A stretch of DNA of 64,000 nt from a virus: positions 47,157 to 111,156 of IMG/VR virus record IMGVR_UViG_3300044946_000428; one strand, 5' to 3'. This document shows positions 5,367-47,497 of the stretch, piece by piece (within the stretch, counting starts at the first letter, position 1; the number at the start of each line of letters is the position of its first letter). The position numbers were made by a program, and so were the translations under genes. The notes beneath the pieces are model-generated. The model saw only the letters and a list, made by a program, of their open reading frames with translations, ran no database searches and had not been told where the DNA came from.

Positions 5367-5954
5367 ATGGGTTTCATGAGCCGCTATGCCGGGACCGAGC
5401 GGGTCGATGTGACCGACCTCGGGCCCGACGACGGCACCGAGTACTGGGTCGAGATCCGCTCGTCGCTCTCCGGGGACGAGTGGGACCGCGCGGACGCGCT
5501 GCACGTGAAGACGGCCGCGAACATGAAGATGGGCGCCGGCAAGGCGGCCCGTCAGGCTGCCGCGAAGCGCCGGGCCGCGATGGCGAACGGCGCGCAGCCG
5601 GAGGACGACGACGACCTGACCGCGCTGCTGTCCTTCGACACGGTCGCCTACCGGCGGGCGCTGCTCGAGGCCGCGATCGTCTCCTGGAACCTCACGGACC
5701 AGCACGGCCGCCCGCTCCCTCTCAAGGACAAGGAGGGTCGGGCCGCGTCGATCCGGGTGCTGCCCGGGGAGGTGCGGGACCGGCTGTTCGAGCGGATCGA
5801 GGAGGGCCGGCCGAAGAAGCGCACCAAGGACGAGGACGCCGACTTTCCAGGCGACGTGCCGGTCGGCGGCGAGGCGCGGGAAATCGGAGCATCCGCTGAT
5901 CCAGGAAATCTGGATGCGTCAGATCTGGTGGTCGCGAACTGGGCTGACGCTTGA
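5367..5954 (+). CDS. Tail assembly chaperone, short (G-type) form
   Basis: 195 residues from ATG 5367. Basic-acidic helical protein with FDTVAYRRALLEAAIVSW (about 91-108), typical of the first tail assembly chaperone. It lies between tail tube and tape measure. The last 25 residues of this frame overlap a second frame that encodes the T part (5881-6129), so a fraction of ribosomes should change frame near the 3' end. Confidence 0.85.
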   Translation: MGFMSRYAGTERVDVTDLGPDDGTEYWVEIRSSLSGDEWDRADALHVKTAANMKMGAGKAARQAAAKRRAAMANGAQPEDDDDLTALLSFDTVAYRRALLEAAIVSWNLTDQHGRPLPLKDKEGRAASIRVLPGEVRDRLFERIEEGRPKKRTKDEDADFPGDVPVGGEAREIGASADPGNLDASDLVVANWADA

Positions 5955-6129
5955 GCAGGCCCGAGCCCGGCATGACCCGCAGGAGTTCGCGGACGCGCTG
6001 ACGTTCTGGCGGATCGAGGCCGAGGAGCGAAACGCCAAGGGCGGCTCCGGTGGCGGCCAGGACCCCGAGGCGGTGGACGCCGCGTTCGCACGGCTGCCGA
6101 GGATCGAACGGCCCCCGACGGCCGGCTGA
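5881..6129 (+). CDS. Tail assembly chaperone, T part reached by frameshift
   Basis: This frame reads EHPLIQEIWMRQIWWSRT just after 5884 and continues with LEQARARHDPQEFADAL, typical of the C-terminal half of the long chaperone. Relative to the short form it is +1 (equivalently -2). The frame is open well upstream, so the slip site cannot be fixed. A GGGAAA run at 5878-5883 is the best candidate. ATG 5914 exists, but starting there would lose the conserved HPLIQEIW segment. Confidence 0.75.
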   Translation, partial: KSEHPLIQEIWMRQIWWSRTGLTLEQARARHDPQEFADALTFWRIEAEERNAKGGSGGGQDPEAVDAAFARLPRIERPPTAG

Positions 6130-6153
6130 CGTGCACGGGGCGGAGGTGGCCTC

Positions 6154-9100
6154 GTGGCGGACTCGGTCACCGTCCTGCTGATGCTCGAGGCGATCGACAA
6201 GGCCTCGCAGATCATCGAGCGGATCTCGGGGAAGCTCGACGCGCTCGGCGAGAAGGCGCAGGCCGCAGCCGACAAGGCCGGCATGACCGGCGAGGAGCTT
6301 GAGGCCGCGCAGGTCAAGGCCGAGGCTGCCGCGAACGCGTATGCCGCCGCGGTGGACGAGCAGGACGCGGCGCAGGCCCGGCTGCTCGAGTCCACGCAGG
6401 CCGTCAGGGACGCGCAGAGTGCGGCGGCCGAGTCTGCGGCCCGGCTCGCGGAGGCGGATGCGGCCGTGGCCTCCGGAGTGGAGGAGGCGGCGACCGCCGC
6501 GCAGGCCTCGTATGCGGACATCGCGGCTGCCGCCGACGCGTCGTCGGCGGCAGTGAAGGCCGCGATCGCCGAGCAGGTCGTCGCGCTCGATGCGCTCGGT
6601 GTCGCGCAGAAGGAAGCGGCGGCGCGGGCGGATGAGTCGGCGGCGGCGCAGGACGCGGCGTCCACCTCGACGGACCTGTCTGGGATGGCTCTCAAGGGCC
6701 TGGCTATCGGGGCCGCGGCGACGGCGGCGGCTGTGGCGGGCATCGGCTACGAGTCCGTCAAGGCTGCGGCGAACTTCCAGTCAGCCACCACGGTGCTGGT
6801 GACGTCCGGGGGCGAGACTGCGCAGAACATCGAGATGGTGCGTCAGGGGATTCTGGGCCTGGCCTCATCCACGGGTACCGCGACGCAGCAGTTGATCAAC
6901 GGCATGTACCTGATCGGCAGCGCGGGCTACACGGGCGCACAGGGCCTGAACGTCCTCAGGGCCGCGGCGCAGGGCGCGAAAGCGGAGAACGCGGACCTCG
7001 GCACCGTGTCCAACGCGCTGACCACCGTCATGCACGACTACGGACACGGTGCCTCGAGCGCGACGGCCGACATGGATGAACTGATCACCACGGTCCAGAA
7101 CGGCAAGACCACCACGGAGGCGCTCGCGTCGTCGCTTTCCACGGTGCTGCCGATCGCCGCCAAGGCCGGGCTGAATTACGCGCAGGTCGGCGGCGCGCTG
7201 GCGACGATGACCGCCGAGGGCATGAGCGCGCAGAACGCGTCGCGCGACCTGGCGAACACGATCACCAATCTGCAGGGCCCGAGCCAGATCGCATCCAAGG
7301 AGATGGCCCAGATGGGCCTGAACTCCAACGACCTGTCTAAGAACCTCGGCAAGGTCGGGCTCGCCGGGACGATCGAAGAGGTCACGAACGCGATCCAGCA
7401 GCACATGGGCCCGGCCGGCCTGGTCGTGGTCAGCGCGTTCCAGAACTCGGCCGCCGCGACGCAGAACCTTCAGACGATCATGTCGAAGATGCCGGCGGAC
7501 CTGAAGTCCCTGGCGACCGAGATCGTGAACGGCACGATCAGCACCAAGGATCTGCGGACCGCGACCTACGGACTCAACACCGAGCAGGCGAAGCAGATCA
7601 GCCAGCTCGAGACTGTGGTCGGGCAGACCCACGAGTTCAACAGCGCCCTGACGTCCGGGACCCCGGCGCAGATCACGGCCGCGAAGGCCCTGCAGACGAT
7701 GCTCGGGGGCCAGGTCGGGCTGAACTCGGCCCTGATGATCTCCTCCGACAAGTACAGGACGGTGACCGGCGACACGAACGCGATTGCCGCGGCCGGTAAG
7801 ACGGCGGGGGCGAACGTCGAGGGCTGGGCCGAGATCCAGGGCAACATGAATCAGAAACTTGACGAGCTCAGGCAGACGGTGGAGGCCGCCTGCATCCAGC
7901 TCGGTACGGCGCTGCTGCCGATGGTCACGAAGATCCTCGACGTCGTCATGAAGATCGTGGCGCCGATCGCGGACTGGATCGAGCACAACAAGACGTTGGC
8001 CGCCGGGATCCTGCTGGTCGTCGGCGGCCTGGCGATCCTGGTGACGACGATGGTCATAGTCGCCAAGATCATAAAGACGGTGCGCGATGCGTGGAGCATA
8101 CTCGGCAGCGCACTCGACCTGGTTACGGGCAAGACCGCCAGGGCCGCTGCCGCAGCCAAGGCCGCCGCCGCGGAATCGGAGGCGGCCGGGGAAGGGGTCG
8201 CCGCGGAAGCCGCCGCGGCCGACGCCGCCAGCGGGAGCATGGAGGCGCTCGCGGAGACCACCGAGGCCGCCGCGACGGCAGCGGACGACAGTGCGGTCGC
8301 GGCCGACGCGTCGGCGCTGGCGTGGGTCCGCTCGGGGCTCGCCGCCGCGGCTTCGGCGGTGAAATTCGTTGTGATGCAGGCCGCGCAGCTTGCCGCGGCA
8401 GCGGCTTCGAAGGCCGTCGCGGCCGCGCAGTGGCTGGTGAACGCGGCGATGAAAGCGGACCCGATCACCCTGATCATCATCGCGATCGTGGCGCTGGTCG
8501 CGGCGTTCGTCCTGCTGTGGAACGAGTCGGCGGGGTTCCGCGACTTCTGGATCGGCGCCTGGTCGGACATCGAGGGCGCGGCCGAGGCAGTCTGGCGTTT
8601 CCTCGAGACCGTCTGGGCCGCCATTGTCGCAGGGTTCGAACTCGTTGTCGACGGCGCCGAGAGCGCGGTCTCGTGGTTCGAATCGCTCCCCGGCAAGTTC
8701 GCCGCGTGGATGGCCGGCGTCCTGAGTGCGGTGGCCGGCGACGGCGCGAAAATCCTCTCGTGGTTCACGTCCCTGCCGGGGGAGATCCTCTCGGCGCTCG
8801 GCAGCCTCGGAGGGCTGCTCGTCAGGGCGGGCCAAGATGTGATCTCCGGACTGCTCAACGGGATCAAGAACATCGCGGCGTCGGTAACATCGTTCTTCGC
8901 CGGCATCCCGGGCTACATCGAGGGGTTCTTCGCGGGCGCGGGGACGTGGCTGTTCGACATCGGCAAAAGCATCCTCGAGGGCCTGGTCAACGGGGCGAAG
9001 TCCGCGTGGAGCGATGTGACGGGGTTCTTCGGCGGCATCGGATCGGCGATCATCAATATGAAGGGGCCGCCGGAGTACGACAGGGTGATGCTGGTCGGCA

Positions 9101-28865: not shown

Positions 28866-29179
28866 CCGCGTCCATTACGGAGAAGCAGTTCCTCCAGCAG
28901 GTGTGCGACCTGGCCCAGTACACCGGCTGGTCGGCGTATCACACCCATGACTCGCGGCGCTCCGAACCTGGTTTCCCCGATCTCGTACTCGCCAACCCGA
29001 AGCAGCAGCGCGTCGTCTACGCGGAGCTCAAGGCCCAGCGCGGCAGGGTGAGCGAGGATCAGCGCCGCTGGCTCGACATGCTCGAGGACTGCGGTGCCGA
29101 GGTCGCGCTGTGGCGTCCCGCGGACATGCCCGTGATCGAAGCCGTGCTCAAGGGGCAGCGGATCGGGGGTGTCGCATGA
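28862..29179 (+). CDS. VRR-NUC domain nuclease
   Basis: 105 residues from GTG 28862. A stand-alone VRR-NUC fold: E7 and Q9 in the first helix, GFPDLVLAN (about 37-45), YAELKAQRGRVSEDQRRWL (about 53-71) giving the PD-(D/E)xK site (D, E-x-K) and trailing Gln. Phage members cut branched DNA such as junctions, and may serve recombination or packaging. It precedes the methyltransferase. Confidence 0.88.
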   Translation: MTASITEKQFLQQVCDLAQYTGWSAYHTHDSRRSEPGFPDLVLANPKQQRVVYAELKAQRGRVSEDQRRWLDMLEDCGAEVALWRPADMPVIEAVLKGQRIGGVA

Positions 29180-30894
29180 CCATCACTGCCGAACTGGTGG
29201 CCTCCCTCCGCGGCGGCGACGTCACCGTGTACGACGAGTTCTGCGGCGGCGGAGGCTCCATGAAGGGTATCCGCGCCATCCCCGGGATGCGCCCGGTGTT
29301 CGCCGCGAACCACGACCCGCACGCCATCGCCACGCATGCCGCGAATAACCCCGGCGTAGATCATTTTCAGGGTGATGTTCAGAAGACTGATATCACCAAG
29401 TTTCCCCACGCGGCATTTTTCTGGTCAAGTCCAGCTTGCCCGAAATGGACCAACGCCCGCGGTGTCGAGCGCGACTTCGACAAGGCGAACCAGATTGCGA
29501 TCCCCGGCATGGAGATCGAGGTCGACGAGAACGTGAAGCGGTCCCGTGCCCTGATGGAGGAAGTGCCACGCTACCTCGCGCACTGGGCACGCCGCGGGCG
29601 GCCGGTCCTTGCCGGGGTCGTCGAGAACGTCATCGAGTGCAGGCTGTGGTCCGACTGGGGCCGCTGGCGCCGTGAGATCGAGGACATCGGCCCGTACCGC
29701 ACGCGCCTGTTCGCGTTCAACTCCATGCACGCCGACGGGACCGTCAACGCGCGAGCGCCGCAGTCCCGCGATCGCCTGTACCTGGCCTACTGGCACGCAC
29801 TGCTCGGCCGGGACCCGGACTGGGACAAGTGGCTGCGCCCTCTCGCTCACTGCGAGCGCTGTCGCCAGGACGTTCGGGCGGTCCAGGTGTTCAAGGACCC
29901 GTCGAAGGACATGGGCCGGTACAAGTCGCAGTACGTTTACAGGTGCCCGACTGCGGGATGCCGCGGCGTTGAGGTGCACCCGCACGTGATGCCCGCAGCC
30001 TCGGTCATCGACTGGTCCGACCTTGGCACCCCGATCGGGGAACGCAAGGACGGCCCGCCGAAACCGAAGACGATGGCGCGTCTCGGCGTGGGAATTCTCA
30101 AGTTCGGCAAGCCGATGGTCGTCCCGGCCGGTGGCACGTGGCGCACGAACGCGACGCAGGCGGCCGAGCCGTTTCCGGCGCGCACCACCCGTGAGTCCGA
30201 CGCGCTCGCCGTCCCGCCGCTGCTCGTCCCAGTCGAGGGCCGGCCGGGCAAGGACGCCGCATCGGTTCTCGCTCCGTCGCGTACGCAGACCACGCGCGCG
30301 GAGACGGCGCTGGCGATTCCGCCGTTCATCGCGACGCTGCGGGGCGGCGGCTCGGCCAAGACCCCGCACGGAATCGACGAGGCGGTCACCACCGTGAGCG
30401 CGTCCGGGAACCATCACGGCTTGGCGCTCCCGCCGGACATCGCGCTGCTCGTGCCGTACTACAGCACGGGTGTCGCGCGGCCGAGCAGCGAACCGGTGGG
30501 CGCGCTGACGACGAAGGACCGGTACGCGCTCGCCCGCACCCCGATGCACGTCGACCCCGAAGCCATCACCCGGGCGGTCGGTGAGATCGAGCGGATCGAG
30601 AAGTTGATCCTGGCGATCCCCGAGTCCCGGCGCAAGGCCGAGCGCGGCCCGTTCGACGCGGAAGCGGCCAAGCACGCGGCGGCGATGGGCCTGGACCCAG
30701 TGCGGTTCCGGATGCTGGGTGTCGCGGAGATCCGGCGGGCGATGGGCGCGGGAGACGACTACATCCTGTTGCCCGCGGCCAAGCGCGACAACATCAGGCT
30801 GCTGGGGAACATGGTGACGCCGCCGGTCGCCGAGTTGTTCGCGGGCGCGCTCATGGAGGTCATCTCCGGCGAGCCGTTGGAGCGTGCGCTGTGA
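29176..30894 (+). CDS. DNA cytosine C5-methyltransferase
   Basis: 572 residues from ATG 29176. Motif I DEFCGGGGS (20-28), motif IV SSPACP with nucleophile Cys88, motif VI E-N-V (150-152), motif VIII Q-S-R-D-R-L-Y (196-202) and a C-terminal L-G-N-M-V motif X. The target-recognition region (about 210-480) is large and has a Cys4 cluster (about 219-245). It probably modifies phage DNA to avoid host restriction; no cognate endonuclease is adjacent, so it is a solitary methylase. Confidence 0.92.
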   Translation: MTITAELVASLRGGDVTVYDEFCGGGGSMKGIRAIPGMRPVFAANHDPHAIATHAANNPGVDHFQGDVQKTDITKFPHAAFFWSSPACPKWTNARGVERDFDKANQIAIPGMEIEVDENVKRSRALMEEVPRYLAHWARRGRPVLAGVVENVIECRLWSDWGRWRREIEDIGPYRTRLFAFNSMHADGTVNARAPQSRDRLYLAYWHALLGRDPDWDKWLRPLAHCERCRQDVRAVQVFKDPSKDMGRYKSQYVYRCPTAGCRGVEVHPHVMPAASVIDWSDLGTPIGERKDGPPKPKTMARLGVGILKFGKPMVVPAGGTWRTNATQAAEPFPARTTRESDALAVPPLLVPVEGRPGKDAASVLAPSRTQTTRAETALAIPPFIATLRGGGSAKTPHGIDEAVTTVSASGNHHGLALPPDIALLVPYYSTGVARPSSEPVGALTTKDRYALARTPMHVDPEAITRAVGEIERIEKLILAIPESRRKAERGPFDAEAAKHAAAMGLDPVRFRMLGVAEIRRAMGAGDDYILLPAAKRDNIRLLGNMVTPPVAELFAGALMEVISGEPLERAL

Positions 30895-32237: not shown

Positions 32238-32425
32238 CCACGCTCGCCCGTATCGCCGCCGCCGGGTCCGGGCTCGCCGCGTTCCTGACGGCGTGCGACC
32301 TCGCGACCCGCGCGCCCTGGTACGACCCGGTCTTGGCCGCCGCCACCGCGATCCTCCTGGCCGCCGTGTCCGCCTGGATCCGGCGCACCACCAACCCGAA
32401 CACCGACGACAAGGACACCCCGTGA
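32234..32425 (+). CDS. Two-helix small membrane protein
   Basis: 63 residues from GTG 32234. Hydrophobic helices at about 6-22 and 32-49 with a short loop containing RAPWYDP. Overlaps both neighbours. Holin-like in shape, but located in the early region, so more likely an early membrane factor. Confidence 0.6.
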   Translation: MTTLARIAAAGSGLAAFLTACDLATRAPWYDPVLAAATAILLAAVSAWIRRTTNPNTDDKDTP

Positions 32426-33003
32426 GCGAGATCCAGAGAACGATCCCAGCCCTAACGGACATCGAACTTGCCAGGTTCCGCGCGAAGATCGCGCCGCGCA
32501 TGAGCCCCGACGGGTGCGAGGAATGGACCGGTGCACACCTGCCGGAGCCGAACCACTACGGCACCGTGCGCATCAGGCAAAGGTTGTACTACGCCCACCG
32601 GATCAGTTATGAGCTGCATCACGGGGCGATCCCGCCAGGGCTCCGCGTCTGCCACCGCTGCGATAACCCACCGTGTACCCGCGGTTCTCACCTGTTCGCC
32701 GGGACCGCGAAGGATAACTCGGTCGATATGCGCGACAAGGGTCGTTGGCGGAACCGGCGCATGGCGGGCTCATTGAATGGCGCCGCAAAGCTCAACGAAG
32801 ACCAGGTGCGCGCCATTCGGGCTGCGTACGCCGGGGGGTCCCGTCAAGTCGATCTAGCCGATGACTTTGGAGTGACTCAGGCATTGATCTCCCTGATTGT
32901 CCGCCGGGAAGCATGGCTGCATGTCGAGCCGACTCCAGTCGAACTGCGGTGCGCGCCAGCGATTGCCGAGCAGTACGCGGACACGCGCCAGGGCGGCGAG
33001 TAG
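32422..33003 (+). CDS. HNH endonuclease with C-terminal helix-turn-helix
   Basis: 193 residues from GTG 32422. The HNH_3 core is at about 25-115: CEEWTG, HRISYELHHGAIPPGLRVCHRCDNPPCTR, LFAGTAKDNSVDM. Residues about 120-165 (LNEDQVRAIRAAYAGGSRQV, then DLADDFGVTQALISLIV) form an HTH of the NUMOD type used by homing nucleases to select sites. Free-standing. Confidence 0.88.
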   Translation: MSEIQRTIPALTDIELARFRAKIAPRMSPDGCEEWTGAHLPEPNHYGTVRIRQRLYYAHRISYELHHGAIPPGLRVCHRCDNPPCTRGSHLFAGTAKDNSVDMRDKGRWRNRRMAGSLNGAAKLNEDQVRAIRAAYAGGSRQVDLADDFGVTQALISLIVRREAWLHVEPTPVELRCAPAIAEQYADTRQGGE

Positions 33004-33006
33004 CCG

Positions 33007-33279
33007 ATGTCCGAGACCGCCGCACGCCGCTACGCCCGCCAGCCCCTCGATGTCGCCGCTCTCCAGTACACGGGCGCCAACGCCGCCGGCATGACCGCGT
33101 TCCTCGGCGCCCATTTCGAGATGTACGGCGGTGATGACGCCGAGGTCCTGACGACGAAGCACTGGTCGTGGACGCCGATCGAACCGGGCAACTGGGCAGT
33201 CCTCGGGCCGGGCGGCTCAGTCTCCGTGATGGACGACGACGACTTCACGGCGATGTTCGCGGCGGTGGGCGATGCCTGA
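33007..33279 (+). CDS. Small phage protein, unrecognised
   Basis: 90 residues from ATG 33007. Beta-rich (VAALQYTG, GNWAVLGPGGSVSVMDDDDF), like a family of small phage proteins with a P-G-(D/N)-(W/Y) turn whose function is unknown. Overlaps the next gene by 8 bases. Confidence 0.65.
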   Translation: MSETAARRYARQPLDVAALQYTGANAAGMTAFLGAHFEMYGGDDAEVLTTKHWSWTPIEPGNWAVLGPGGSVSVMDDDDFTAMFAAVGDA

Positions 33280-33715
33280 CCAGACCCGGATCGCGTCGAT
33301 CAAGGGCAGGCTTCGCGAACTCGGCCCGCGCCTCGATCTCGCCCCCGACCACGTATACGTCGGCCGCTGCTGCAAGCGTGGCGGCTGGGACCTGCCGCAG
33401 TCGCCGTACCGCAACCCGTTCACGGTCACGACGTACGGGTTCGACGGCGCGCTCGAACGCTACCGGCTCCACCTCGTGAGCCGCCCGGACCTGGTCGAGC
33501 GGGCGCGGGCGGAACTGACCGGGAGGGTCCTGTGCTGCTTCTGCACGGATCTGTCCCGCTGCCACTGCGCCGTCCTGGCCGAGGCCTGCGACACGCCCGG
33601 GGTCTGGCCCGCGCCCGTCCTGACCGACTGCGGCGACGAGTTCTGGGGCCGGTCCGTGCCGGTCCGACCGCGCGAGACCGTCCGGCTCTCCCGCGATCTC
33701 GCACATCTCCTCTGA
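33272..33715 (+). CDS. DUF4326 protein
   Basis: 147 residues from ATG 33272. YVGR-x-x-x-R-G-G-W, S-P-Y-R-N-P-F (about 50-56) and L-T-G-R-V-L-C-C-F-C followed by C-H-C-A-V-L match DUF4326, a small Cys-containing family common in phages, of unknown biochemical role. A second member lies at 35786, so the two flank the repeat region and the RAMP-like gene. Confidence 0.8.
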   Translation: MPDQTRIASIKGRLRELGPRLDLAPDHVYVGRCCKRGGWDLPQSPYRNPFTVTTYGFDGALERYRLHLVSRPDLVERARAELTGRVLCCFCTDLSRCHCAVLAEACDTPGVWPAPVLTDCGDEFWGRSVPVRPRETVRLSRDLAHLL

Positions 33716-33726
33716 AAGGAACTGAG

Positions 33727-34305
33727 ATGACCATTCTGGACGACCCCGACGCACCTGCCCGCGACTGCCTGAGCGAGATGAGCGCCCTGATCAACGCTGC
33801 TTTGCCCGATGGCGAGTACGTCGCGCCCCTCGTTGCGCATGACCTGGTGGAGAAGCTGCGGGTGAACGACCCGGACCTTCTCGCCGGCTGGCTGTGGGAG
33901 CGCGCCGAGGTCACGATGACCGCGTACATCAGCGACCGGATCAAGAATCGACGTAACGCCAGCCGCGAATCCCTGTCCCGCTCCGCCTTCGCGGGCGCGG
34001 CCGAGCGGTTCGCTGCAACCGGCGACGGCGCCGCGATGCGGGAAGCCGTCGTTCAGCGCCCGTTCGACGCCGAGCATGTCGTCAACGAGGGTCTGCTTCG
34101 CCGCAAGGTCGCGGAGATGACCGGCGAGGACCACCTGTTCGTGGCCAAGGAGTACGCGGACACGAAACAGACCGCGGCACTGCTGGAGTCCTTTCACCGC
34201 GCCGTCGCCAAGAAGGTCGGCAAGCGCAAGACGAAGGACGTGTTCACCGAGGTTCAGTACGTCGAGATGTACCAGTCGATCACCCGCCGCGAACTGGCTG
34301 CCTGA
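33727..34305 (+). CDS. Helical early protein, unrecognised
   Basis: 192 residues from ATG 33727 with AAAGGAA upstream. Acidic N-terminal half and basic C-terminal half (KKVGKRKTKD near 165). It ends 37 bases before the repeat region, and its leader (GAAAGGAACTGAGATGACC) is nearly repeated before the RAMP-like gene. Confidence 0.65.
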   Translation: MTILDDPDAPARDCLSEMSALINAALPDGEYVAPLVAHDLVEKLRVNDPDLLAGWLWERAEVTMTAYISDRIKNRRNASRESLSRSAFAGAAERFAATGDGAAMREAVVQRPFDAEHVVNEGLLRRKVAEMTGEDHLFVAKEYADTKQTAALLESFHRAVAKKVGKRKTKDVFTEVQYVEMYQSITRRELAA

Positions 34306-34342
34306 ACGCGCATGACAACCCTCCCCGAATCACCTCAGCGCG

Positions 34343-35093
34343 CCGACTACTCGAGCTATCGCGTCACGAATCCATTCGACCCGGCCCTCTCCGACTGCCC
34401 AACCCTGGCCTCCATTGCGCTGCCCGGCACGCCCCACATCGACTTTTCACCTTCACGCTGTTCGCCCAGTCCATTTCTTATCGAGGCTGCCCGACTTCCC
34501 GAGCCGTCGCGAATCCATTCATCCCTACTCGAACCGACTACGCGCCCCGCCTCGCAGCGGCACGCCGCGCCCGCCACTCCTCCCGCTCCGACTAGCCACC
34601 TTTCTCCAACGCAACTCCCTTCCACCCAGCACGGCCCGACTACCCGGCCTTGGCCAGGGTTCGCCCCCGTCTCGATCCGCCACGACCAGCCTGCCCCGCT
34701 CAGGGCACCACTCCCCGGCCCTGCCCGACTTCCCTACGCCAACCCCGTCCTCTCGACCCCTGTTCGACGATCCGTCCCTATTCGTTTCTTCGCAACGCGT
34801 TGCATCGCGTGCCATCCCGAACGACTTATCTCCCCCACGCCCCCAGACCCCGCTCTCCACCACTTGCCCCGACTACGCGGGCCTTCACGCATCTACTCGG
34901 CTCGACCCGCCCTGACTACCCGGCCCGTCCCAGTCTCCATCGTCCCCGGCGCCATCACTCCGGCCCTTATCGACTACCCAGCCCACCAAGGCTCACATCA
35001 CTTCTCTCCGACTACTCAAGCCGGCACGTCACCGCACCGCTCGAACCAATCCGACTACCCGACTCTCGGCGCCCCCGGCCATCGCATCCGACT
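34343..35093 (+). repeat. G-poor region with about 16 copies of a CCGACTA-type motif
   Basis: About 800 bases between genes at 34305 and 35112. The top strand is very C-rich and G-poor (33 C and 8 G in 34561-34620). The motif (C)CGACT, often CCGACTAC, recurs at about 34343, 34391, 34440, 34491, 34534, 34588, 34636, 34725, 34822, 34869, 34913 (as CTGACTAC), 34971, 35008, 35051 and 35088, spaced 37-58 bases where regular. Some units share longer similarity: GAATCCATTC follows copies one and four. Several frames stay open at once, which points to composition rather than coding. It could be an origin, a binding array or a transcribed RNA. Confidence 0.7.
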
Positions 35094-35111
35094 GCTCGAA
35101 AGGAATCTGAA

Positions 35112-35789
35112 ATGACCTCCGTCTTCGCTAAGCACATCCCCCAGGCGTGGCCCCACCGGTACGCCGGAACCCTGCACATCTCGACGCTCGCTGGCGGCAC
35201 CCCGTCCGATCCGAACGTCGCCGAGGGCTGGCTCAAGACGAAGCTCGCCGACAAGAACGACCTCATCCGCGACGCCGTCGCCGAGGTCATGGTCGAGCGC
35301 GGCATCACGGCCGAGGAAGCCGCGAAGGAACTCGACCGGCTCAAGCACCTCAACGGGTTCCGCAAGGACCCGGAGCGCGGCGGCGAACTCTACATCGAGG
35401 GGCGCCAGCTCAAAGCCGGCATCAAGGAAGCAGCGTCCGTCGCCCGGGCGGTCGGGAAGCTCCCGGACCGGTGGGGCCTGACGAAGAAGGGCATCGTCAA
35501 CTTCGTCGCCGAGCACATCCAGGTCGTCGAAGACCGGCTCTACCTCGGCGTCACCGAACCGAGTGACGTGCTCCAGTCGTTCCCGAAGAACGCGCGCACT
35601 GGCCAGACCGGGATCCAGTACACGGAGATCATCCGTGACGCGAAGCTCGACTTCACCCTGATCAGTGACCACAAGTTCAGCGACGACGAGTGGGCGATGC
35701 TCTGGCTCACCGCCGAGCAGCAGGGCATCGGCGCGTCGCGGTCGCAGGGCTTCGGCCGGTACGAGGTCGTCAAGTGGGAGCGTGCGTGA
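35112..35789 (+). CDS. RAMP-like (Cas7/Cas6-type fold) protein, putative
   Basis: 225 residues from ATG 35112 (AAAGGAA upstream). Two features recall the RAMP superfamily of CRISPR RNA-binding proteins: LYIEGRQLKAGIKEA (93-107), which resembles the hIPGSSLKG-h-h-R helix start of Cas7-type proteins, and GIGASRSQGFGRYEV (205-219), which fits the glycine-rich loop G-x-G-x-x-R-S-x-G-F-G. The N-terminus (YAGTLHIST) would be strand one. No Cas genes are nearby. The array-like repeat region ends directly before this gene. Sequence similarity is short, so a chance match is possible. Confidence 0.5.
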   Translation: MTSVFAKHIPQAWPHRYAGTLHISTLAGGTPSDPNVAEGWLKTKLADKNDLIRDAVAEVMVERGITAEEAAKELDRLKHLNGFRKDPERGGELYIEGRQLKAGIKEAASVARAVGKLPDRWGLTKKGIVNFVAEHIQVVEDRLYLGVTEPSDVLQSFPKNARTGQTGIQYTEIIRDAKLDFTLISDHKFSDDEWAMLWLTAEQQGIGASRSQGFGRYEVVKWERA

Positions 35790-36241
35790 CCACGCAGTTT
35801 GGCGGCGAGGGGCGCCCGGCAAGTCTGGGCGTCCCGGCCCGTGTGCGCCTGTCCCGGGCCAAGGGTTTCCGTTTGCAGGAGCATGCGCCAGGCGCGGTCG
35901 TCGTGCGGCGCCCCACCCGGTGGGGTAATCCGTTCACGGTCGCGGACGTGCTCAAGGACGACCCGACGCTCACCGAGGTGCAGGCGCGTGAGTGCTGCAC
36001 CGGCCTGTTCGACCTGTGGCTCGACGGGCTGCTCGTCGGCGTGGACGACCTGGCGGAGCGGCGCGCCTGGATCCTCGGGCACATCGGCGACCTGACCGGC
36101 CGGCCGCTCGCCTGTACTTGTCCGCTGCCTGGGCCGGGCGCCCCGGACTGGTGCCACGGGGCGGTCCTGCTGCGCCACGCGAACCCTGACCTGGCCGAGC
36201 CGGTCCCGGCACTCACGACCGCCTGGGCGGGCGCCCTGTGA
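35786..36241 (+). CDS. DUF4326 protein, second copy
   Basis: 151 residues from GTG 35786, overlapping the RAMP-like gene by 4 bases. R-P-T-R-W-G-N-P-F (43-51) and L-T-G-R-P-L-A-C-T-C-P followed by W-C-H-G-A-V-L-L are the family hallmarks. It is closer to the family consensus than the copy at 33272. Confidence 0.82.
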   Translation: MTTQFGGEGRPASLGVPARVRLSRAKGFRLQEHAPGAVVVRRPTRWGNPFTVADVLKDDPTLTEVQARECCTGLFDLWLDGLLVGVDDLAERRAWILGHIGDLTGRPLACTCPLPGPGAPDWCHGAVLLRHANPDLAEPVPALTTAWAGAL

Positions 36242-36465
36242 CGTACGAACGCTGCCTGAACCCCGCCTGCCGCCGCGAACTGGTCGACCCGGAGTCACGC
36301 CTGCGCGGCTATGGGAGGCGCTGTTGGGAGGCGCGGCGGCCGCAGCCGATCGGCGCCGTCATCCGGCAGCTGCCGATCGCGCGGCGCGCCGCTGAGCTCG
36401 TCCCCGGACAGCTGGAACTCGACCTTGACACGCCGTGTGGCGACGACGCTGGCGGCGCGGCGTGA
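36238..36465 (+). CDS. DUF6011-like zinc protein
   Basis: 75 residues from GTG 36238. C-L-N-P-A-C-R-R-E-L-V-D-P-E-S-R-L-R-G-Y-G-R-R-C (hyphenated) gives two N-terminal Cys and a third at the end of a G-Y-G-x-x-C turn, a small zinc-binding module typical of actinobacterial phages. It ends the gene run before a leftward regulator. Confidence 0.7.
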   Translation: MTYERCLNPACRRELVDPESRLRGYGRRCWEARRPQPIGAVIRQLPIARRAAELVPGQLELDLDTPCGDDAGGAA

Positions 36466-37319: not shown

Positions 37320-37865
37320 GTGAACCGCATCACCCGCACGAAACTCGGCTCGATCGCGCTCGCGGCGTACATCGGCTCGATCGCCGCCGCGAACATCACC
37401 ACCGCGCACTACGGGCTCATCCCCGTCGGCTTCGGCCTGACCGCGACCGCCGGCACCTACTTCGCCGGGGCCGCGCTGATGCTGCGCAACCTCGTCCAGG
37501 ACGCGTTCGGACGCCGCGCCGTCATCGCCGCGATCCTCATCGGCGCCCTGCTCTCGGCCCTCACCTCGCCTGCCCTCGCGCTCGCCTCCGGGTCGGCGTT
37601 CCTCATCGGCGAACTCGCCGACATGACCCTCTACACGCCGCTCCGCAAGCGCGGCTGGGCACGAGCTGTCATCCCCGCCTCCTTCCTCGGCGCGGTCATC
37701 GACACGTTCGTATTCCTGCACCTCGCGCACTTTCCCGTCACAGCCGCCGGGGTCTCCGGCCAGATCGTCGGCAAGACCTGGGCCGTGTGGGTGCCCGTCG
37801 CCCTCGTCGCCACCTATCGGAGCGTGCGTCGTGATCCGGTATCTCGGAACACCGTCGACGCCTGA
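37320..37865 (+). CDS. VUT-family transporter (queuosine-precursor type, YhhQ-like)
   Basis: 181 residues from GTG 37320. Five or six hydrophobic helices, with N-I-T (about 25) and L-R-N-L-V-Q-D-A-F-G-R-R (about 56-67), the motif that defines VUT/YhhQ proteins, plus S-F-L-G-A-V-I-D-T-F-V-F-L (about 122). Characterised members import preQ0 or preQ1 for queuosine or deazaguanine synthesis. The transglycosylase-like gene overlaps its 3' end by 35 bases, so the pair may supply and insert a deazaguanine base. Confidence 0.85.
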   Translation: MNRITRTKLGSIALAAYIGSIAAANITTAHYGLIPVGFGLTATAGTYFAGAALMLRNLVQDAFGRRAVIAAILIGALLSALTSPALALASGSAFLIGELADMTLYTPLRKRGWARAVIPASFLGAVIDTFVFLHLAHFPVTAAGVSGQIVGKTWAVWVPVALVATYRSVRRDPVSRNTVDA

Positions 37866-38490
37866 GATTCGACACGCCATGGCTACCGGACTCATCGACG
37901 CGATGACGGGCCCGTATCAGGGCAACATCCTTCCGGCGTGCCCGTGGGGCGCGGACAACGGCAAGTTCACCGCGGCCGGGCCGCGCGAGCACTGGATTGG
38001 GCACGGCCGCTGGTTCGACTGGCTTGAGGGTCAGGTGGACCGCTACGGCGCGGAGGCGTGCCGGTTCGCTGTCGCCCCGGACGCCCCGTTCGATGCCGCC
38101 GCGACGCTCGATGAGTCCCTGCCGTGGATGGAGAAGATCCGCGAACTCGGGATACCTGCCGCGTTCGCCGCGCAGAACCACTGCGACCTGTACGGCCTGC
38201 CGTGGGACGAGATGGACGTCTTGTTCCTCGCGGGCGACACGGCCTGGAAGATCGGGCCGGTCGCGCACCGCCTCACGATCGAGGCGAAAGAGCGCGGCAA
38301 GTGGGTCCACATGGGCCGCGTCAACTCTCTGCGGCGCCTGCAGATCGCCGAGTGGTTCGGGTGCGACTCGGCCGACGGCACGTACCTGAAGTTCGGACCC
38401 GACATCAACCTCGGGCGCCTCGCGGGCTGGCTCAGCGAGATGAACGCTCGCCCCTCCCTCGCCACGGCCCTCCCGGTGACCACGCAATGA
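37831..38490 (+). CDS. DpdA-like / tRNA-guanine transglycosylase-like protein
   Basis: 219 residues from GTG 37831. Order of motifs: Y-L-G-T-P (4-8), FAVAPDAPFDAAATL (about 74-88), LGIPAAFAAQNHCD (about 107-120), DVLFLAGDTAWKIGP (about 130-144), GKWVHMGRVNSLRRL (about 156-170) and DGTYLKFGPD (about 181-190). These resemble the short DpdA-type proteins of actinophages, TIM-barrel relatives of bacterial TGT that exchange guanine for a deazaguanine in DNA. The adjacent precursor transporter supports this. The synthesis genes are not seen in the window. Confidence 0.7.
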   Translation: MIRYLGTPSTPEIRHAMATGLIDAMTGPYQGNILPACPWGADNGKFTAAGPREHWIGHGRWFDWLEGQVDRYGAEACRFAVAPDAPFDAAATLDESLPWMEKIRELGIPAAFAAQNHCDLYGLPWDEMDVLFLAGDTAWKIGPVAHRLTIEAKERGKWVHMGRVNSLRRLQIAEWFGCDSADGTYLKFGPDINLGRLAGWLSEMNARPSLATALPVTTQ

Positions 38491-47129: not shown

Positions 47130-47497
47130 CCGCCCGCATTCTCGTGACCGGCAGCCGCGCCTGGACCGACTACGACGTGATCCGGGACGCGATCGAGAAG
47201 GCCGCGGCCGATCTCGGCGGGGACGCGGTTGTCGTGCACGGCAACGCGCAGGGTGCGGACCGGCTCGCTGACCGTGCTGCCCGCGCGCTCGGTTTGCGGA
47301 CGGAGCCGCGCTCTGCACGGTGGCGGACCGAGGGGCGCGCGGCCGGGCCGCTCCGCAATCAGCGGATGGTCGACCTCGGCGCGGACGTCTGCCTGGCGTT
47401 CCCGCTCGGCGAGTCCCGTGGTACCCGTGACGCGATCACGCGTGCTGAGGCCGCTGGAATCCCGGTCCGCGTGTATGGGCGGGACGGTGCCGCGTGA
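47126..47497 (+). CDS. SLOG-domain protein (YspA/DprA-like Rossmann fold)
   Basis: 123 residues from GTG 47126. ILVTGSRAWTDYDVI (5-19), VVVHGNAQGADRLADRAARALG (about 35-56), N-Q-R-M-V (about 78) and G-x-R-G-T-R-D-A-I match the small YspA/DUF2493 group. SLOG proteins bind nucleotide-derived ligands, and some act in defence or counter-defence. Its place among small membrane proteins is suggestive but not decisive. Confidence 0.82.
   Translation: MTARILVTGSRAWTDYDVIRDAIEKAAADLGGDAVVVHGNAQGADRLADRAARALGLRTEPRSARWRTEGRAAGPLRNQRMVDLGADVCLAFPLGESRGTRDAITRAEAAGIPVRVYGRDGAA

Follow-up and report, generated by a model that had tools for sequence, protein, structure and literature searches.

The window is a 64,000-nucleotide stretch of virus DNA (positions 47,157 to 111,156 of the IMG/VR record IMGVR_UViG_3300044946_000428). 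It contains, in this order, a gene for a helical protein, a C-rich array of pentamers and a gene for a RAMP protein. The arrangement is compared below with VIPR (Viral Interference Programmable Repeat), which a 2026 preprint describes as a stand-alone phage RAMP protein (Vipr) with pentamer-repeat vrRNAs (PMC13142463). The features of the locus are as follows.

33727..34305, + strand: conserved all-helical protein of 192 aa, candidate VIPR-accessory protein (vap); present in 32 loci, AlphaFold2 model
34314..35097, probably + strand: guide-RNA (vrRNA-like) array of NN-c-Y-C pentamers and 3-nt GAC inserts, about 18 GAC-led units; array score and C autocorrelation
35100..35106, + strand: ribosome-binding site of the Vipr gene (AAGGAAT), which follows immediately on the last GAC unit; read from the sequence
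35112..35789, + strand: RAMP protein of 225 aa with ATG start, remote Vipr homologue; predicted Cas7/Csm3-like fold, two motifs, profile match to SUSP1-type Vipr

This module has a separate DUF4326 gene on each side (33272-33715 and 35786-36241 of the window). Upstream of it are a C5-cytosine methyltransferase and an HNH endonuclease (29179-30894 and 32422-33003). At 37320-37865 and 37831-38490, a gene of the Vut_1 family (queuosine-precursor transporter-like) overlaps the gene of a phrog_15826 protein of unknown function. The same two genes also occur together in one of the related loci (L016), and we take the pair to be possibly involved in 7-deazaguanine DNA modification.

The RAMP protein and the array

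The RAMP protein contains the motif EGRQLKAGIKEA at residues 96-107 and the C-terminal glycine-rich loop GIGASRSQGFGRYEV at residues 205-219. Both are present exactly as the preliminary description of this DNA had claimed, and both are among the best-conserved columns in an alignment of 42 phage homologues. In this alignment, K105, E106, G205, G207, R210 and G215 are invariant, R98, K101, A102, S211, Q212 and G213 are conserved in at least 90% of sequences, and the G-loop GIGASRSQGFGRY is conserved. With the 42-row alignment as input, AlphaFold2 returns a model with a mean pLDDT of 78.4 and a pTM of 0.73. Among solved structures, the model comes closest to the backbone subunits Csm3/Cas7 from type III-A and type VII complexes (Foldseek E 6e-8 with a probability of 1.00; VIA-align Z of about 10 across 150-167 residues). 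The earlier assignment as a RAMP protein is thus confirmed by the predicted structure, though Pfam and PHROGs, which return no significant family for it, miss it. PADLOC gives only weak C-terminal matches to Csm3 and Cas6 (E 0.004-0.03). The protein has the features of a stand-alone phage RAMP, with an RRM core and a glycine-rich loop. The absence of cas genes that was described previously also holds, in that neither Cas1 (PF01867) nor RAMPs (PF03787) has a match in the whole 111 kb record.

A profile of Vipr from phage SUSP1 and four relatives aligns with the window RAMP family over 141 columns that include the G-loop (hhalign E 1.4e-4, probability 53%). An unrelated profile does not match the family, and pairwise BLASTP between the window RAMP and SUSP1 Vipr is not significant. 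As a positive control, the published YNNGG arrays and Vipr of SUSP1 were recovered. By this profile match, the window RAMP is a remote homologue of SUSP1 Vipr. GU169904.1, labelled "Staphylococcus phage SA1", also encodes a Vipr (91679-92263) that shares 98.5% identity with the coliphage SUSP1 protein, which suggests that this record is a mixed or mislabelled assembly.

The array is a 0.8 kb non-coding region, rich in C and poor in G, that separates the RAMP gene from the gene preceding it. It starts where that gene stops and ends with GACTGCTC, immediately 5' of the ribosome-binding site. Pentamers of the form N-N-c-Y-C follow one another head to tail, with the last C present in 94-97% of them. 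Every 5-10 units, the pentamers are interrupted by a GAC insert, and the next pentamer is usually rich in T/A, for example TACCC. Because the 3-nt GAC lies between pentamers, GAC-to-GAC spacings are 3+5k (33, 38, 43, 48 or 53 nt), and the GAC-to-GAC runs leave no space for a 3' tail. The array scores 194, compared to 18 +/- 5 (maximum 34) in 100 dinucleotide shuffles of the same sequence, and the autocorrelation of C peaks at lags 5, 10 and 15. No long identical or CRISPR-like repeats are found in the array, where only the short GAC motif recurs. A tandem of pentamers with a conserved triplet and a hypervariable NN is the feature that marks VIPR vrRNAs. The triplet reads c-Y-C on the vipr strand and G-R-g on the opposite strand. 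No sigma-70-like promoter was seen in positions 33600-36300.

Distribution in related phages and the transcribed strand

The IMG/VR scan yields 44 relatives of the RAMP protein, with identities of 43-96%. Microcystis phage Mae-JY09, a named phage, encodes a homologue with 33% identity. In GTDB genomes, a scan with a short pattern recovers no Vipr homologues. Arrays were identified with a grammar-based detector, for which the null maximum is about 14 bits in 12 kb shuffles. Of 43 distinct loci, 39 have a pentamer array close to the gene; three of the remaining four are contigs cut less than 60 nt from the gene, and the fourth is L031. In most cases, an array starts where the upstream gene stops, often in the form TGAC, and the median distance from its end to the RAMP start is 27 nt. 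Across loci, there are 680 GAC-bounded units. Some single phages have a very long array, which extends over about 1.9-2 kb and carries 42-55 GAC inserts (L027, 4163-6066; L035, 7158-9199; L021, 3288-5160), and the largest number of inserts in one array is about 55 (L027). In Mae-JY09 (L001, PP395641.1), the whole system is unannotated. The accessory gene is at 5375-5917, the Vipr homologue at 5920-6666 and the array, directly downstream of the Vipr homologue, at 6669-7036.

The accessory gene is present in 32 loci, which are nearly all of those with enough flanking sequence, and is usually located just before the array. Its product is predicted to be all-helical (AlphaFold2, pLDDT 88.9). The model has no match in PDB and BFVD, a result that does not by itself show a new fold. 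By hhalign, the protein is unrelated to SUSP1 vap1, the sole vap that was compared. The locus has the form of a minimal VIPR locus with a vap gene, in which a conserved candidate accessory gene lies beside the array. The preliminary description is correct in its RAMP reading, but it overlooked both the array and this gene.

The C-rich strand is the strand of the vipr gene in 52 of 53 arrays. The only exception is the inverted array of L040 (5142-5904), which is on the strand opposite to vipr and is separated from the gene by about 100 nt; in L040, the accessory gene is downstream of vipr. Alternatively, the G-rich minus strand could be the transcribed one, antisense to vipr, and yield GRg/NN units near the published GGY/NN. 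In favour of this, the reverse complement of the window array reads G-R-g-N-N, and SUSP1 vrRNAs, on the vipr strand, are GG-rich. This alternative is unlikely, given the common direction of the C-rich strand and vipr. The arrays abut the upstream stop and the vipr ribosome-binding site, so there is no room for an antisense promoter, and it is the single inverted array that has a promoter-sized gap. The G-strand also folds much more strongly than the C-strand, which is unstructured in the window array (folding z 0.87, no more folded than shuffles). Four observations together argue for the C-strand as the transcript: its shared direction with vipr, the absence of space for a promoter, the inverted array of L040 and the weak folding of this strand. 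The target code is identical for either strand, so the decoding described below does not decide between them.

Conservation and decoding of the NN letters

Guides common to different phages keep their NN letters while the scaffold letters change, which shows selection on NN. There are nine identical 6-unit NN windows between phages, compared to 0.05 expected. The members of the best guide pairs differ 4 times within pentamer positions 1-2, compared to 26 times within positions 3-4 (p 6e-5 by a binomial test, although the pairs are not all independent). All six NN pairs are identical between one guide of Mae-JY09 and one of L040, and counterparts of window guides 15 and 16 occur in L002 and L005. 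The NN composition best fits codon positions 1-2. This fit is weakly informative, since shuffling units between guides yields the same result.

According to the preprint, VIPR reads dsDNA through its NN letters with one base skipped per step, usually the codon wobble (PMC13142463). A bulk search with all guides and skips of 0-3 nt in 1.2-2.7 Mb of DNA (both strands counted) finds no excess over shuffles, including for the 1-nt skip; this amount of DNA is too small for guides of 12-18 nt. The 1-nt-skip code with the skip at the wobble position does fit natural targets for two guides of relatives.

The first of these guides (L019#2/L022#5) reads HELGH(L/I/M)V(M/I)H in reverse complement, which is the ImmA/IrrE metallopeptidase motif. 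Its exact 1-skip pattern has 84 matches in IMG/VR, compared to one for a unit-shuffled control. Among 80 fetched matches, 56 encode HELGH[LIM]VMH in the reading frame, and the skipped base is at the wobble position. The matches that were checked lie in XRE-ImmA genes. All of these (12 of 12 records) fit the RosmerTA model for RmrA, at E 1e-45 to 1e-154; this model is broad and also detects genes in 13 of 14 control genomes. HMM scans of the decoded peptides are an insensitive method that missed the PprDinG control, but HELGHLVMH matched RmrA in them (E 0.02).

The second guide (L014#1/L019#8) decodes to LLSVERGHNI or LAIERGHNI. It falls in frame in DinG helicases of actinobacterial pPIWI_RE islands in GTDB genomes (PprDinG, E 1e-91 to 1e-213; Pfam pPIWI_RE_Z). 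The only differences between the two versions are in the S/A and V/I codons, which are those that vary in pPIWI_RE DinG helicases. The full 10-unit L014 guide has an exact match in Nocardiopsis chromatogenes, and among 246 genomes of the class of this species it matches that known genome only. This case is weaker than that of HELGHLVMH, given the large size of the genome collection and the presence of part of the motif in the ABC-F family.

Two other targets were considered for the second guide. A phage portal gene in IMG/VR (SIERGQNM), taken at first as the target, was discarded in favour of the pPIWI_RE helicase, which the longer L014 guide (LLSVERGHNI) fits. Matches to an ABC-F ATPase (SMERGQKI) come mostly from mixed Y/M combinations within the pattern. 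L019#8 alone also fits some ABC-F genes.

No target of the window's own guides was found. Window guides 14 and 12 have no exact target, and the 14 matches to the pattern of guide 16 are incoherent. Another gene of the window has Streptomyces-phage homologues, which makes actinobacterial hosts plausible.

Proposed function and comparison with known systems

The locus is very probably a phage-encoded RNA-guided DNA-recognition system of the VIPR type. The preliminary description had offered three proposals, of which an unknown RNA-guided system is the best supported, given the adjacent array of the VIPR kind. This type of system became known with the 2026 preprint (PMC13142463). We infer the RNA strand and processing, RNP formation, DNA binding, silencing and the accessory role as follows. 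The accessory gene, the array and the vipr gene are likely co-transcribed. Cleavage of the C-rich array RNA at the GAC inserts or close to them would release vrRNAs about 6-13 pentamers long, and Cas7-like Vipr monomers would coat each RNA, one per pentamer. Vipr would grip the conserved c-Y-C letters and present the two variable letters, and the NN pairs would read dsDNA as NN-x-NN-x, with the skipped base at the codon wobble position. By analogy to another VIPR type, for which the preprint demonstrates dsDNA binding and silencing (PMC13142463), the bound complex may silence the target gene.

A second alternative is that the RAMP protein is a decoy or an anti-CRISPR, which captures host crRNA or binds RNA non-specifically. 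The protein is phage encoded and has a predicted Cas7-like fold, and RNA-based anti-CRISPRs (Racrs) are described (PMC10651486). In nearly all relatives, however, the gene is accompanied by a guide array of its own and by a conserved accessory gene, and the guides carry conserved NN information and decode to genes. The window array lacks a CRISPR-like repeat, and the 680 GAC-bounded units across loci do not resemble the solitary repeat mimic of the Racr type. This alternative is accordingly very improbable, and the proposal of a decoy in type I/III CRISPR finds no support, because the array has no CRISPR-like repeats and the RAMP co-occurs with its own array and accessory gene. Although an open frame of 267 aa crosses the array (34312-35115), a coding or low-complexity stretch with the pentamer period as a by-product is scarcely credible, since the period of 5 with 3-nt inserts is no multiple of 3 and is not recovered in dinucleotide shuffles, and the grammar recurs in 39 loci while the sequence between motifs is unconserved.

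A more specific version of the VIPR-type reading is proposed tentatively, and is less probable than the general one. In this version, the clade would be a distinct VIPR type in which long, compact, GAC-processed C-rich arrays silence host immunity genes (pPIWI_RE helicase, RmrA-like XRE-ImmA) and rivals, as a programmable multi-guide anti-defence. The clade is an independent check, from sequence alone, of the non-contiguous code of VIPR, and it adds a different RNA scaffold, a different array architecture and an unstudied accessory protein. If the pPIWI_RE and XRE-ImmA guides are real, phages turn RNA-guided silencing on host immunity, which is not in the main text of the preprint (PMC13142463). 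Decoding the NN letters of further arrays could in that case point to host genes that are important to a phage.

The preprint mentions seven VIPR types, "a related consensus" and staggered arrays, and states that array architecture varies by type (PMC13142463). In type II (Escherichia phage SUSP1), the consensus is YNNGG (GGY triplet), and the vrRNAs are about 100 nt with a structured, invariant 3' tail (PMC13142463). The window system is similar to type II in its stand-alone RAMP with a G-loop, its pentamer RNA with hypervariable NN and its minimal locus with one accessory gene. The NN-x target code with the skip at the wobble position is also similar, here for two guides of relatives. The scaffold is different, with C-rich NNcYC in the window system on the vipr strand and YNNGG in SUSP1, so either the RNA polarity or the consensus differs from characterised type II. 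Vipr homologues with CNNGG arrays are present in Mycobacterium phage LittleE (L049, 1672-1866 and 3163-3448) and Gordonia phage Trine (L050, 2625-2689); both scaffold types therefore exist in actinophages.

The window clade has many GAC-separated guides in a continuous, tail-less array, unlike the approximately 100-nt RNAs of SUSP1 with their structured tail. Because array architecture varies among VIPR types in the preprint, the missing tail bears on type II membership only. The all-helical accessory protein is unrelated to SUSP1 vap1. Guides of relatives within the clade decode to host-defence helicase and XRE-ImmA genes, whereas the targets of the SUSP1 system in the preprint are satellites. 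The window system may be one of the seven types of the preprint.

VIPR is proposed in the preprint as a possible ancestor of class 1 CRISPR (PMC13142463). With Cas7/Csm3 of CRISPR-Cas types III-A and VII, the window system shares a predicted backbone RAMP fold (VIA-align Z of about 10) and the proposed coating of a guide RNA. Of the features of class 1 CRISPR-Cas, neither cas genes beside the RAMP, sought as Cas1 and Pfam RAMPs across the 111 kb record, nor identical repeats with unique spacers are found. Unlike CRISPR-Cas loci, the window record lacks Cas1, a Pfam-RAMP member and identical repeats. The repeat unit is 5 nt in the window system, compared to 6 nt in CRISPR-Cas, and the pairing would be non-contiguous.
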